This document shows, one piece after another, positions 18,989-46,006 of a stretch of DNA of 64,000 nucleotides. Origin of the DNA: Saccharofermentans sp. (lineage in GTDB: Bacteria; Bacillota; Clostridia; Saccharofermentanales; Saccharofermentanaceae); NCBI GenBank assembly GCA_024685385.1, contig JAIKVV010000052.1, positions 1-64,000 on the forward strand, read 5' to 3'. The notes below the pieces were generated by a model. That model saw nothing but the letters and a program-made list of their open reading frames with translations, made no database searches and was not told where the DNA came from. The position numbers were made by a program, and so were the translations under genes. How positions within the stretch are numbered: the stretch's first letter is position 1; every line of letters begins with the position of its first letter.

Positions 18989-19064
18989 CGAGGTGTAGCG
19001 CAGTTGGTAGCGTACGTGCTTTGGGAGCATGGGGTCGCGGGTTCGAATCCTGTCACCTCGACCA
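18989..19064 (+). tRNA. tRNA-Pro (anticodon TGG)
   Basis: CGAGGTG...CACCTCG acceptor stem, anticodon loop CTTTGGGAG, GGTTCGAATCC T-arm, encoded CCA; TATAAT at 18969-18974. Confidence 0.93.
19040..19064 (+). repeat. attL core (25 bp)
   Basis: GGTTCGAATCCTGTCACCTCGACCA, identical to 54452-54476. Confidence 0.93.
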
Positions 19065-19297: not shown

Positions 19298-20083
19298 TCA
19301 TTTTAGATATTGGTTGAAGCAGAATCCCTGATAACAGGTATTCCCGTCTGTATACTGAACACAGTACCAAGATCCAATACGGGATCCCAGTCCCGCTACC
19401 GTCTTTCCCTTTTTAATGGTCTTCAGGACGTTATACTTTGTCCCGGGACCATCTCTTAAGTTCAGATTATCCTTATCAGTTACAACAGTATATTTCTTGT
19501 CGATACCTGGGTCTTTCGATGCCTTCGAAAGCATAGCGGCTTTGATAGTCTTAACCGCCTGAGTCGGTGTTGAAGGGGCTGGAGCTGCTGTCTGCTTCTC
19601 TTCAGTAAAGAAGGGTGATTGTGCCCAATATGGCCACGCCTTAGCATTGAACTTTGTCTTGACCACACCGTATGCATGTCCTTTCGCCTCGATCACATAA
19701 CCATCAACATATACACCAACATGTGTCTTCTTGGAATCAGAGCCCTTGAAGACAAGCCTGCCGTTCATCTTGTCAAAGGATGCAATCTTACCCTTCTTTG
19801 TGGCCTTGTTATAGAGTCCGTTAGCCCCCAGATCCTGTGATGTGTTGTACTTCGGCACAGATGTAGGAGTATCTGACCACAAAGCCCCGTTATGGAGCCC
19901 CACGCAGTCATATACTCGTTGGCCATACTGTGAAGAGAAGTCTTTAGCCGTGTAATACTTCGGGTACTGTTTCTTCTTTTCATCATAGAGCTTCTTAGAA
20001 GAAGTCTGACCAAATGTTCCAAACCAGTACGGTTTTCCTACCTGGGCCTTGGCGTATTCAACCAGATATGCATTTGATTTCAT
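19298..20083 (-). CDS. Endolysin: NlpC/P60-like amidase/peptidase plus SH3-type domain
   Basis: VYDCVGLHNGALW catalytic Cys region, THVGVYVDGYVIEA His region; C-terminal YTVVTDKDNLNLRDGPGTKYNVLKTIKKGKTV SH3 motif. Confidence 0.8.
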   Translation of the reverse strand: MKSNAYLVEYAKAQVGKPYWFGTFGQTSSKKLYDEKKKQYPKYYTAKDFSSQYGQRVYDCVGLHNGALWSDTPTSVPKYNTSQDLGANGLYNKATKKGKIASFDKMNGRLVFKGSDSKKTHVGVYVDGYVIEAKGHAYGVVKTKFNAKAWPYWAQSPFFTEEKQTAAPAPSTPTQAVKTIKAAMLSKASKDPGIDKKYTVVTDKDNLNLRDGPGTKYNVLKTIKKGKTVAGLGSRIGSWYCVQYTDGNTCYQGFCFNQYLK

Positions 20084-29440: not shown

Positions 29441-29665
29441 TTACTTCATCCCGAAAATCTTCCGTAATGCCCAATCAGCTTCCTCGAGAGAATGCGTGAC
29501 TGTACGGGAGTGGCGGGATCTCCACTCGCTATAGATCTTTCTTTCCTGTGCTGTGAACTTGTCTCTTACTTTTCTGTTTTTCTCAGAACGGATCCTGACG
29601 AGGTACCCGAGCGGTGTCTCACCATTCAGACCGGCAAGAAGAGTCGTAAACTCGTCCCAGAGCAT
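29441..29665 (-). CDS. Tail assembly chaperone, frameshifted C-terminal part (GT-like)
   Basis: Frame open upstream to about 29774 with no ATG/GTG/TTG; reads PTPKNEVWYDLYEDYDAIEASFAQQYGILLRREDDMLWDEF. Confidence 0.65.
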   Translation of the reverse strand: MLWDEFTTLLAGLNGETPLGYLVRIRSEKNRKVRDKFTAQERKIYSEWRSRHSRTVTHSLEEADWALRKIFGMK

Positions 29666-29753
29666 ATCATCTTCTCTTCTTAACAGGATCCCGTATTGCT
29701 GTGCAAAAGATGCTTCGATAGCATCGTAATCTTCATAGAGATCGTACCAGACC

Positions 29754-30071
29754 TCATTCTTCGGTGTCGGTGCGAAAGTCGTCCTCTATGTCTTCCAGGT
29801 CCTTGTTCATCGCTACTGCCATAGCAGCCTTCATGATCGTTACCCAGTTATCGAAGGGAAGATTCATATCCTCGATCTGCTTGATCGCTTCATTGCCAAG
29901 CAAGATCTTTAAGATCTCGTTTATCTGTTCCAAATCATCCCCGTTTTCGAGGGCCATTACCTTCAACATTGCGTTCTTGGTGCAATCGACCTTGTACTTA
30001 TGTTTCTCATCAATGATAAGGAATCTCGGCTCCCTATCCAATTTGTTGCTTATGTTTATTACTCTACCCAT
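29754..30071 (-). CDS. Tail assembly chaperone (G-like)
   Basis: MGRVINISNKLDREPRFLIIDEKHKYKVDCTKNAMLKVM, between tail tube and tape measure; RBS upstream of 30071. Confidence 0.7.
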   Translation of the reverse strand: MGRVINISNKLDREPRFLIIDEKHKYKVDCTKNAMLKVMALENGDDLEQINEILKILLGNEAIKQIEDMNLPFDNWVTIMKAAMAVAMNKDLEDIEDDFRTDTEE

Positions 30072-32101: not shown

Positions 32102-32200
32102 TTACTTCTTTTTCTTGGGTTTCTCTTCGGAAGGAACTTCCTTCTGGGTCTTACCTTTAGGCTGTTCCTTCTTCGGAATACCACCGATCATGATACTCAT
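32102..32200 (-). CDS. 32-aa Lys/Pro-rich phage protein
   Basis: MSIMIGGIPKKEQPKGKTQKEVPSEEKPKKKK, GGAGG-type RBS upstream; not in supplied track. Confidence 0.45.
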   Translation of the reverse strand: MSIMIGGIPKKEQPKGKTQKEVPSEEKPKKKK

Positions 32201-32211
32201 AAAGCACCTCC

Positions 32212-32577
32212 TTACTCACATACAAGCGGTGACAAGTCGTACTCCTTACGGAGTGTTGCCGTACCATCAGTAGCCACGATAATGAGCTTCTGGGTATTCT
32301 TGTCATTGATGTATGCTGCAAAGTTCTTATCCTCATCCTCGATGATCTCAACAAGGCCGCTGTCATCATCAATGGGAGTGGTTCCACCCGGACCACCGTA
32401 TGTAGGTCTAAGCCCTACCTTAACGGAAGTCATATCCTCGGTGATTCCCAGAACTTTCATGGCGAGGAAGTTACCTTCACCCCAGTAGTTAACCAGAGCG
32501 CTCGGAGTATCATAATGCTTGAGTGTTCCTGTTACGGCATTCCCTACAACAGAAACACCGCTCTGAAGATCACTCAC
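32212..32577 (-). CDS. C-terminal extension domain of the major capsid protein, expected by -1 frameshift
   Basis: Only a GTG start without evident RBS; same frame is open back through the capsid stop into AAACCCC (32634-32640). Confidence 0.6.
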   Translation of the reverse strand: MSDLQSGVSVVGNAVTGTLKHYDTPSALVNYWGEGNFLAMKVLGITEDMTSVKVGLRPTYGGPGGTTPIDDDSGLVEIIEDEDKNFAAYINDKNTQKLIIVATDGTATLRKEYDLSPLVCE

Positions 32578-32627
32578 TGCCGAGTCGTAGATTGTAGCCC
32601 CACTGTCCTCGGGCTCAACCGAGGGGC

Positions 32628-33491
32628 TTACGAGGGGTTTGATGCCACCACATGAGCATAGATACCTGCTACCTTGTTCTCATAGACATCGTTAAGGCCA
32701 TAGATCCTGTAACCGAACTTCCATGCGTCAGCATCCTGATTCTGTTCAGGTGTGATGACCTTCGGTGCCAGGTGCTTGACCGTCTGAAGAACTGCAGACT
32801 TGGCAACGATAAGGAAGTTAAGGTTCTTACCATCTGTGTGCCTGGAGTATCCGCCTGCGCCGGATGTAGCAAGAGCAACCTTGCTGTAGAAACGACTCTG
32901 CGGAACCTTGGTGATCTTGGCGAAGGATGCAAGACAAGCCTTGGACTTAGTTGTATCCATATCCTCGATATCCTTAAGACCTGCAGGTGTAATGAAGAGG
33001 TATCTCTCTTCTAAAGGAACCTCTGCGTCATCCATCTCTGCCATTGCTGCGGATACAGCTGCATACCAGCCACCTGCAGAAATGTTTGCGGAAGTACCGC
33101 CGATATTAGCTGTGCCTGCGTACTGTGCGAAACGGACAGCGTCAACCTCGGGAACAACCTTTGTTCTGATGAACTCACCTGCGAGCTTACCGAAAGCGAT
33201 ACCTGCAGTCTCCTCGTTGTCCATAGCGTCAACGTTGAACATACGACCACGCTCGTAGTTGAACTGCTTGGTCTCGTGTGTGAGTGTAACATCGCCCTGG
33301 GTATAACCGCTGTTACGGCTGTAAGCTGCAAGACCCTGCATCTCAAGCTTGGGTACGATGATCTCGTTAGCGTTAGCACCTGCCTGGAAGAGTTCAGAAT
33401 CGCCATCAAGTACAGACGTAAGAGAAGCGTTCTTATAAACTTCATCAAGCAAAGGTACATACTTCTTAAAAAGTGCAATAGAATTTGCCAT
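32628..33491 (-). CDS. Phage major capsid protein
   Basis: MANSIALFKKYVPLLDEVYKNASLTSVLDGD... follows the scaffold gene; 287 aa. Confidence 0.85.
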   Translation of the reverse strand: MANSIALFKKYVPLLDEVYKNASLTSVLDGDSELFQAGANANEIIVPKLEMQGLAAYSRNSGYTQGDVTLTHETKQFNYERGRMFNVDAMDNEETAGIAFGKLAGEFIRTKVVPEVDAVRFAQYAGTANIGGTSANISAGGWYAAVSAAMAEMDDAEVPLEERYLFITPAGLKDIEDMDTTKSKACLASFAKITKVPQSRFYSKVALATSGAGGYSRHTDGKNLNFLIVAKSAVLQTVKHLAPKVITPEQNQDADAWKFGYRIYGLNDVYENKVAGIYAHVVASNPS

Positions 33492-43738: not shown

Positions 43739-46006
43739 CTACTTTTTTCGTCGGACAAATGACATATCATATTTGCCGTCTTTGCCCCTATTTTTAATCA
43801 TCTCGAATGATTCTGACTCTTTTACTCGGCGTATTATCGTTTGCGAAGAACATCCAAGATAATCCACAAGATCCTGCACCGTGACCTCACCACCATCGTT
43901 CAGGGAACTGACTGCCTCGAAAGCGTTCTCGAACTCTTGCTGGCGTTTCTTTTTCTTGACTTCGGGATCCTTGCGCTTCTCCATAGCTTTCTGCCAGGGA
44001 AGCTTTGAACCTTCTGCATCAAGATCGGAGAGCACGCCGATATCATCGATCTGATGTACGGGATAGTTGAACCAGAGATTAACCGGAGCGAACTTCGGAA
44101 ACTCACGAAGAGTGCCTTCAATACGCCATGCGGTACGGGCATCGAGTTCCTTGTTCTTCTCGTTGATCGCGATCTGGATCTCGCTCTTCTGGGCCCAGGA
44201 GCACTTATCATCGATAAACTTCTGCATCTTATGGAATGACAGCTTATCGTCTTCAGAAATAAATCCTTGGTCTTCCCAGTCCGGCATTTTTTCTGCCAAA
44301 TAATTGCAGATAATATTGCACGCTGCAGATTCGCGCTGCTGTTTGGCCAAAGCGTCCGTTATCTCCAGTTCAATAAGATCGATGAGGGCATCCGGATCAC
44401 GTGCAAACACACCGGATCCTGACGCACGGTCCATAGACCTTTTCTCGCCCTGGTGTCCCTTTGAGTGATGGTGACAGTAGATCACCGCACATCCGAGTTC
44501 ATTACAGACCTTATCGAACTGGTTACAGAAGTGTGCCATCTGGTCTGCAGAGTTCTCGTCACCCGTGATTACCTTGTAGATGGGATCGATAATTACAGCT
44601 ATGTATTCCTTCTTCTGGGCACGACGTATAAGTTTCGGAGCGAGTTTGTCCATAGGCAAGGAAGATCCTCTCAGATTCCATATATCGATATTGGAAACAT
44701 TCTGAGGACGCCATCCCAGGCTCTCATATACATCATGGAAACGATGCAGGCACGAAGCCCTGTCGAGCTCCAGATTGACATAGAGGATCTTACCCTGAGC
44801 GCACTTCCATCCTAACCAGTCTCTGCCTTCAGCAATTGCGCAGCACAGTTCGATCAGTGCGAATGACTTACCCGCTTTCGAAGGACCGGCAAGAAGCAGC
44901 TTGTGACCTTTTCGCAGTACACCATCGATAAGAGGATCTGCAAGAGGCGGCATGTCTATCCATACATCAGACAATGCTTCAGGATCCGGAAGATCGTCGT
45001 TGACTGCCTCGATCCACTCTTTCCATTCATCGAAATCCTTCTTACCGATATTGGTAGCGATAAGAAACTGTTTATGGCCGTTACGCATAACGCCCGGCAT
45101 ACGTGACAGCCTTGACGGATTCCTGTTCTGTGTATCTATCTTCAGACCGTTCTTCTTACAGACATCGTAGATGAAGTCCACACGCTTCCTGTACTCCTCG
45201 TACGATGCTGCATCGACCCGGACAATGGCATGGATGGATTTCTTGCCGGAATGCACGAGACACGCCACAGGAAGCTCCAGATCACGAATAATAGTATTCT
45301 GCTGCGCAAGATCCATTGTGTCTGATTCGACCAACGCATACCTGAACTCAGTAACGTTATCGTTCTTGACACCCTGACCGTCCAGAGGATTGAACCGGAT
45401 CCAGGCACCTACTTCATCGTTGTAGTCGCCCAGAGCCTCGCCGATATTCTTATACTTCTTAAGATCCCGGATGATATCTCCGGCCGTTCTGGTATATGCT
45501 CCCTTGGACGGAAGATGCTTACCCTCGGTGTTCTGCCAAGTATCGGTAACATATCCGACTATCTCATCAGGCTGAAATAGAGTTTCAAGATAATTGGTAA
45601 GGTCAGATATCGGGTCCCAGTTATTCGGCTCCTCTATCTCTTTGATCTCCATCCAGTTCTTGTTAATGATGGTAAGATCGTCACCGTCATCCGTAATGAC
45701 ATCGTCCCAGTCAAGCTCATGACCTTCGTCATCGTCGCGACGATGTGGCATCCAACCACTCTCCTTGGCCATCTGGGTGATTGTCGCACCGGATACACCG
45801 GTACCGCCATAAGAGCCGAAAGAAGACCACTTCTTATCACACTCTCCCGGATGATATCTGGAAGAGTCCCTCTGCGACCACATATCCCAGACAGAACAGG
45901 AATAGCCTTCAGAATGAAGTGCCATGCCTACCTGAACCCATTCTTGATAATTGCATTGAGACGGATCGATATAATCCAGCAATTCGGTAAGATTTATCTC
46001 ACTCAT
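43739..46006 (-). CDS. Primase-helicase / RepA-like AAA ATPase replication protein
   Basis: PriCT-like QCNYQEWVQVGMALHSEGYSC; LLLAGPSKAGKSFALIELCCAIAEGRDWLGW Walker A; VIIDPIYK; C-terminal HTH. Confidence 0.8.
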   Translation of the reverse strand: MSEINLTELLDYIDPSQCNYQEWVQVGMALHSEGYSCSVWDMWSQRDSSRYHPGECDKKWSSFGSYGGTGVSGATITQMAKESGWMPHRRDDDEGHELDWDDVITDDGDDLTIINKNWMEIKEIEEPNNWDPISDLTNYLETLFQPDEIVGYVTDTWQNTEGKHLPSKGAYTRTAGDIIRDLKKYKNIGEALGDYNDEVGAWIRFNPLDGQGVKNDNVTEFRYALVESDTMDLAQQNTIIRDLELPVACLVHSGKKSIHAIVRVDAASYEEYRKRVDFIYDVCKKNGLKIDTQNRNPSRLSRMPGVMRNGHKQFLIATNIGKKDFDEWKEWIEAVNDDLPDPEALSDVWIDMPPLADPLIDGVLRKGHKLLLAGPSKAGKSFALIELCCAIAEGRDWLGWKCAQGKILYVNLELDRASCLHRFHDVYESLGWRPQNVSNIDIWNLRGSSLPMDKLAPKLIRRAQKKEYIAVIIDPIYKVITGDENSADQMAHFCNQFDKVCNELGCAVIYCHHHSKGHQGEKRSMDRASGSGVFARDPDALIDLIELEITDALAKQQRESAACNIICNYLAEKMPDWEDQGFISEDDKLSFHKMQKFIDDKCSWAQKSEIQIAINEKNKELDARTAWRIEGTLREFPKFAPVNLWFNYPVHQIDDIGVLSDLDAEGSKLPWQKAMEKRKDPEVKKKKRQQEFENAFEAVSSLNDGGEVTVQDLVDYLGCSSQTIIRRVKESESFEMIKNRGKDGKYDMSFVRRKK

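Follow-up and report, generated by a model that had tools for sequence, protein, structure and literature searches.

Frameshift-made extensions of capsid and tail proteins are established in several phages (PMC5009743, PMC6316719). Lactobacillus phage A2 frameshifts by -1 in two genes, those for its major head protein and for a tail protein; the major coat protein of phage T3 has a frameshift-made Ig-like extension, and T7 makes the 10A/10B pair; and Listeria phage PSA shifts by +1 at proline codons (CCC) in its genes cps and tsh, the capsid gene also having a pseudoknot (all PMC5009743, the last in its Figure 3D). With SPP1 gp17.1*, the tail protein comes in a short and a long form at a ratio of 3:1 (PMC6316719). 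Both gp17.1* (PMC6316719, PMC8718954) and TpeX of the 936 lactococcal phages (PMC6669499) are decorations of the tail tube added by frameshifting, non-essential or adhesive. Ig-like phage extensions have been reviewed (PMC5009743, PMC8718954), and one of these reviews relays the suggestion that the frame in which a decoration domain is attached reflects a chance landing (PMC5009743).

Here we describe a comparable prophage locus in a 64,000-nt stretch of DNA from Saccharofermentans sp. (contig JAIKVV010000052.1), which as a whole we call the window. The near relatives of this host are rumen Clostridia, and all sequences compared are MAGs or viral contigs. The major capsid protein gene (32628..33491, minus strand), with scaffold, minor head and portal genes upstream, encodes 287 aa in the 0 frame and matches the major head protein profile phrog_422 along its whole length (E 6e-70, capsid residues 1-283). 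It ends with the codons GCA TCA AAC CCC TCG TAA, which place a slippery heptamer A AAC CCC (32634..32640, minus) in the phase X XXY YYZ; the 0-frame stop TAA (32628..32630, minus) falls between this slip site and the stem discussed below. In the -1 frame no stop codon occurs between a point 39 nt ahead of the heptamer and the TAA at 32214-32212, and the resulting extension (32212..32640, minus; 142 codons from the slip site plus the stop) would be a beta-sandwich of the phrog_31690 family. After a -1 slip the codons would read AAA CCC CTC GTA AGC CCC and onwards, and the predicted transframe product has 286 + 140 = 426 aa, with capsid and extension joined through the peptide ...NPLVSPSVEPEDSG... 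(span also given as ...SNPLVSPSVEPEDSG...). Within the extension lies a 121-aa ORF that has a GTG (32575..32577, minus) as its only start, the sole start codon close to the -1 ORF's 5′ end, and no Shine-Dalgarno in front of it; the next gene, for a small lysine-rich protein (32102..32200, minus), has its own AAGGAGG. The initial annotation had reported the heptamer and its phase, the -1 frame running open past the capsid stop, the 121-aa ORF with a GTG and no clear ribosome-binding site, and isoforms of 287 and about 426 aa, and the codons and the arithmetic agree with it throughout; A2 and PSA, which it named as precedents, are known cases, the PSA shift being +1.

By itself the heptamer occurs at chance level (AAACCCY is found 12 times in the window, with 11.8 expected), and A AAC CCC, having Y = C, does not rank among the classical strong slip sites. 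Of the 115 window ORFs of at least 100 aa, only the capsid has both an in-frame XXXYYYZ no more than 12 nt from its stop and 80 or more open codons in the -1 frame. A primase/ATPase-like ORF (43739-46006, minus) carries A AAA AAG in frame within 12 nt of its end; its -1 frame is open for just 38 codons, and the motif there is probably due to chance. Two other features of the window may be recorded. Between the major tail protein and a long tape-measure-like ORF lies a likely tail-assembly chaperone pair of the G/GT type (29441-30071, minus), whose second frame (ending at 29441) would be reached by shifting +1 or -2, perhaps at GAC TTT CGC. A tRNA-Pro (TGG) gene at 18989-19064 (plus) adjoins a prophage NlpC/P60-SH3 ORF (19298-20083) and is a possible attachment site.

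Four relatives (L002, L092, L093 and L094; here L numbers denote loci and G numbers genomes or phage records) share the same capsid, heptamer and extension, the last being 72-86% identical to that of the window, and L091, from a MAG named Saccharofermentans sp., has an extension 100% identical to it. Across the window and these four the heptamer is invariant, and it is followed by TCG TAA in the window, TGA in L002 and in L092, TTG TAA in L093 and TAA in L094, with the 0-frame stop 0-9 nt after the heptamer in the relatives. Computed over the extension by Nei-Gojobori for all ten pairs, dN/dS lies at 0.05-0.19 in the -1 frame and at 1.3-2.8 in the other two; by this measure purifying selection acts on the -1 frame and not on the others. 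Among the other fetched capsid relatives (46-72% identical capsids), none has A AAC CCY at the capsid end where this could be scanned. Many relatives lacking the domain carry a small ORF with its own Shine-Dalgarno directly after the capsid, and since they pass straight from capsid to small next gene, the domain seems to be a later insertion between two long-standing neighbours.

Past the slip site, a stem beginning 5 nt after the heptamer pairs AGCCCC (32623..32628, minus) with GGGGCT (32596..32601, minus), and within its loop lies an inner hairpin, CCTCGG-TTGAGC-CCGAGG (32607..32624, minus). Both arms of the outer stem covary in a gapless alignment (A5) of 16 junctions from four partner families and the L082-type tail protein. 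The eight stem pairs are formed in 92.2% of its cells, against 38-55% when the partner is slid by 1-3 columns; six of the eight show two-sided, compensatory changes (e.g. G-C to C-G, U-A to C-G); the covariation score of 0.563 was equalled by 0 of 500 shuffles; and RNAalifold recovers this very stem unprompted. Taken alone, the window stem is not significant against shuffles (z +0.41; p 0.10-0.17), and Rfam finds nothing in the window except a tRNA. A covariance model of slip site plus stem (R1), built with L138, L134 and L135 kept out, matches these three held-out junctions, has no match in 79 capsid-relative loci that lack the domain, and in 117 genomes of the host family matches four places, all with a phrog_31690-type domain; it misses the diverged junctions L099, L100, L089 and L140. 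At 5 nt from the heptamer the conserved AGCCCC/GGGGCT stem lies in the 5-9 nt range of stimulatory structures at -1 sites, and it is the likely stimulator. The initial annotation had assigned that role to the CCTCGG hairpin, which does exist at 32624-32607 but is absent from L092-L094; not being conserved among the relatives, it was dropped as a stimulator. The programmed -1 frameshift signal for an extended capsid that the same annotation proposed is supported by the invariant heptamer, the purifying selection in the -1 frame, the covarying stem and the lack of conservation of the GTG (below).

The window extension matches phrog_31690 (PHROGs v4, function unknown) at E 1.6e-7, and 18/18 homologues tested match this profile too. 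A Pfam search of 18 members gave no meaningful match, and they show no recognisable Ig-family profile (I-set, Big, FN3). AlphaFold2 predicts a confident, mostly-beta domain (pLDDT 92.3 for the window extension, 90.6 for a second model), whose best PDB structure matches are often PKD, FN3 or Ig domains, none of them significant (E 0.03 or worse, TM-scores mostly <0.5); among viral models, the nearest ones are phage proteins that are themselves uncharacterised. At the sequence level, PDB chains gave no match. Named phage records held no match for the window extension or for the L134 domain, and the L127 domain as query of phage records found two unannotated human-gut contigs. Of 391 other genomes in a sample of the class, two had the domain, one of these matches being weak (E 7e-4), and none did among 398 others in the phylum sample. 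In L128 (genome G277), weak homologues of the domain form repeated units in one 857-codon open frame.

The domain is attached to different virion proteins of head and tail, partly by frameshift and partly in frame. A -1 frameshift connects it to head proteins of phrog_422 (window clade, L137), phrog_544 (L114-L116, L133, L138) and phrog_10 (L099, L100, L134, L135); to the L127 partner, whose best match is phrog_3270, annotated as head maturation protease, and whose C-terminal half also matches a major head protein more weakly; and to the L089 partner, of phrog_4088 (function unknown), taken for a coat protein from its place and size. On the tail side the same relation holds for proteins of phrog_2645 (L129; L140 by likeness) and for the L082-L085 protein, which has no PHROG match and is called a major tail protein by position and look. 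Counted by PHROG profiles, on which the tally depends, the frameshift partners fall into two tail groups and no fewer than four head-protein families. In-frame fusions involve tail proteins of phrog_88 (L087, L102) and phrog_885 (L088), a head protein of phrog_29 (L136) and a virion protein of phrog_2729 (L139); stand-alone copies, each with its own start and spacer, occur in the distant members L090 and L101. The single phage records G117, G118 and G120 each have the domain twice, behind a head protein and behind a tail protein, and their head and tail copies (L082, L083, L085) differ in slip site, A AAC CCT versus G GGG GAA. Partner exchange is also seen in the domain tree, where the head/tail label changes at least four times on well-supported branches; its deep branches are poorly resolved.

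The recoding signal appears to move together with the domain, since the frameshift-joined members share the stem and six of the seven others are without it. In 22 frameshift junctions examined jointly a stem lies just past the slip site, in one register in 16, shifted by 1-2 nt in five (L099, L134, L135, L089, L100) and by ~4 nt in L138; in L140, which was looked at on its own, the usual position holds no stem. In the in-frame or stand-alone copies it is absent from 6/7 (best stem p 0.47-0.93). The exception, L102, is an in-frame tail fusion and yet has a perfect 9-bp stem; it is the sister of the frameshift-joined capsid copy L099, which resides in the same prophage (genome G040). We consider it reasonably probable that slip site, spacer and stem constitute a self-contained recoding cassette at the 5′ end of the domain's frame, which moves with the domain and whose stem decays after in-frame fusion; a portable module that loses its stem when this is no longer needed would be the simplest reading. 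Alternatively, frameshifting may be real and the signal not portable, slip site and stem having been invented anew after each out-of-frame landing, in line with the chance-landing view of Ig-like phage domains. This would suit the variation of slip sites by partner (A AAC CCY, G GGG GAA, U UUA AAA in L140, UUU before the stop in L100 and L138), the poor resolution of the deep tree and the displacement of some stems by 1-4 nt. It sits badly with a stem placed at the same domain codons in frameshift-joined members and with core stem letters common to different partners (GCTCTC/GAGAGC in L127 and L137, GCTCTC/GGGAG in L114; AGCCCTAC/GTGGG in L094 and L138), with A AAC CCC or A AAC CCT closing six unrelated partner families, and with the stem kept by L102 despite its in-frame fusion, and we regard such repeated invention as rather unlikely. 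One of the other slip sites, GGGGGAA, is the 'fivetwo' motif that PRFect reported throughout its SEA-PHAGES set (PMC10885494).

Much less survives of the proposal that the extension is an independent gene of ~121 aa, translated from GTG 32577 either alone or coupled to the capsid stop. The window, L002 and L094 share the GTG, and the stand-alone copies L090 and L101 offer a parallel; however, L092 and L093 read GTA at this position and offer no in-frame ATG until one inside the domain, and the -1-frame selection includes codons before the GTG. The invariant heptamer and stem would moreover be left unexplained. We rejected this reading as very improbable on the missing Shine-Dalgarno, the unconserved GTG and the selection upstream of it. 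Two further explanations deserve next to no credence: a single frame broken by an indel, through sequencing or assembly error or decay of a fusion, for which the in-frame fusions of the domain (L087, L088, L102, L136, L139) are a precedent, is contradicted by five same-capsid loci and by junctions in six other partner groups, in every one of which the extension sits in the -1 frame behind a slip site and the 0-frame stop varies; and transcriptional slippage in place of ribosomal frameshifting, which has nothing specific in its favour, is rejected because the runs (A3-C4) are shorter than those on which polymerases are generally known to slip and because the covarying stem, 5 nt past the heptamer, is of the kind usual at ribosomal -1 sites.

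Judged from the comparison of sequences, the joint explanation that is highly probable is a programmed -1 frameshift, giving the 287-aa capsid and a minor 426-aa form, with heptamer, spacer, stem and domain acting as one portable module. Most ribosomes would read AAC CCC TCG and stop at TAA, making the shorter capsid. The stem would pause a fraction of them, which would slip back one base on A AAC CCC into the -1 frame and add the beta-sandwich domain of ~140 residues to the capsid. We infer the slippage and its efficiency, and the virion would then incorporate a minority of decorated capsid subunits, plausibly conferring weak adhesion to the host surface. Such loose binding by decorated subunits is likely by analogy with SPP1 gp17.1*, Ig-like extensions and TpeX of 936 phages. 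The PHROG phrog_31690 would in this way gain a likely role, virion decoration. If the cassette exists as proposed, a domain landing behind a capsid or tail tube protein would bring its own sub-stoichiometric expression, and the module would be a natural portable part for low-copy display of domains on virions.

Set beside the systems introduced above, the window locus would resemble A2, where a -1 shift late in the head gene appends a domain to the C-terminus, and G117, G118 and G120 resemble A2 in having head and tail frameshifts in one phage. The domain differs from that of A2, whose slip site reportedly also differs from the window's, and we know of no shared portable signal described for that phage. 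As in T3 and T7, two coat-protein isoforms would come from one gene by a -1 frameshift, although the domain is unrelated and T3 and T7 are podoviruses of enterobacteria. PSA likewise has extended capsid and tail proteins and a capsid signal with downstream structure, but its shift is +1 with a pseudoknot, whereas the window shift would be -1 with a simple stem. With SPP1 and TpeX the locus has in common a decoration domain added by frameshift; these are confined to the tail, the SPP1 shift is +1, and their domains are FN3 or carbohydrate-binding domains of recognisable families. For phrog_31690, no function or junction type had been recorded previously. Because one uncharacterised family recurs with a shared frameshift layout on head and tail proteins that are unrelated to each other, and with a covarying stem missing from nearly all in-frame and stand-alone copies, the idea of chance landing can be put to the test. 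A portable recoding signal tied to one domain family appears to be new among these systems.
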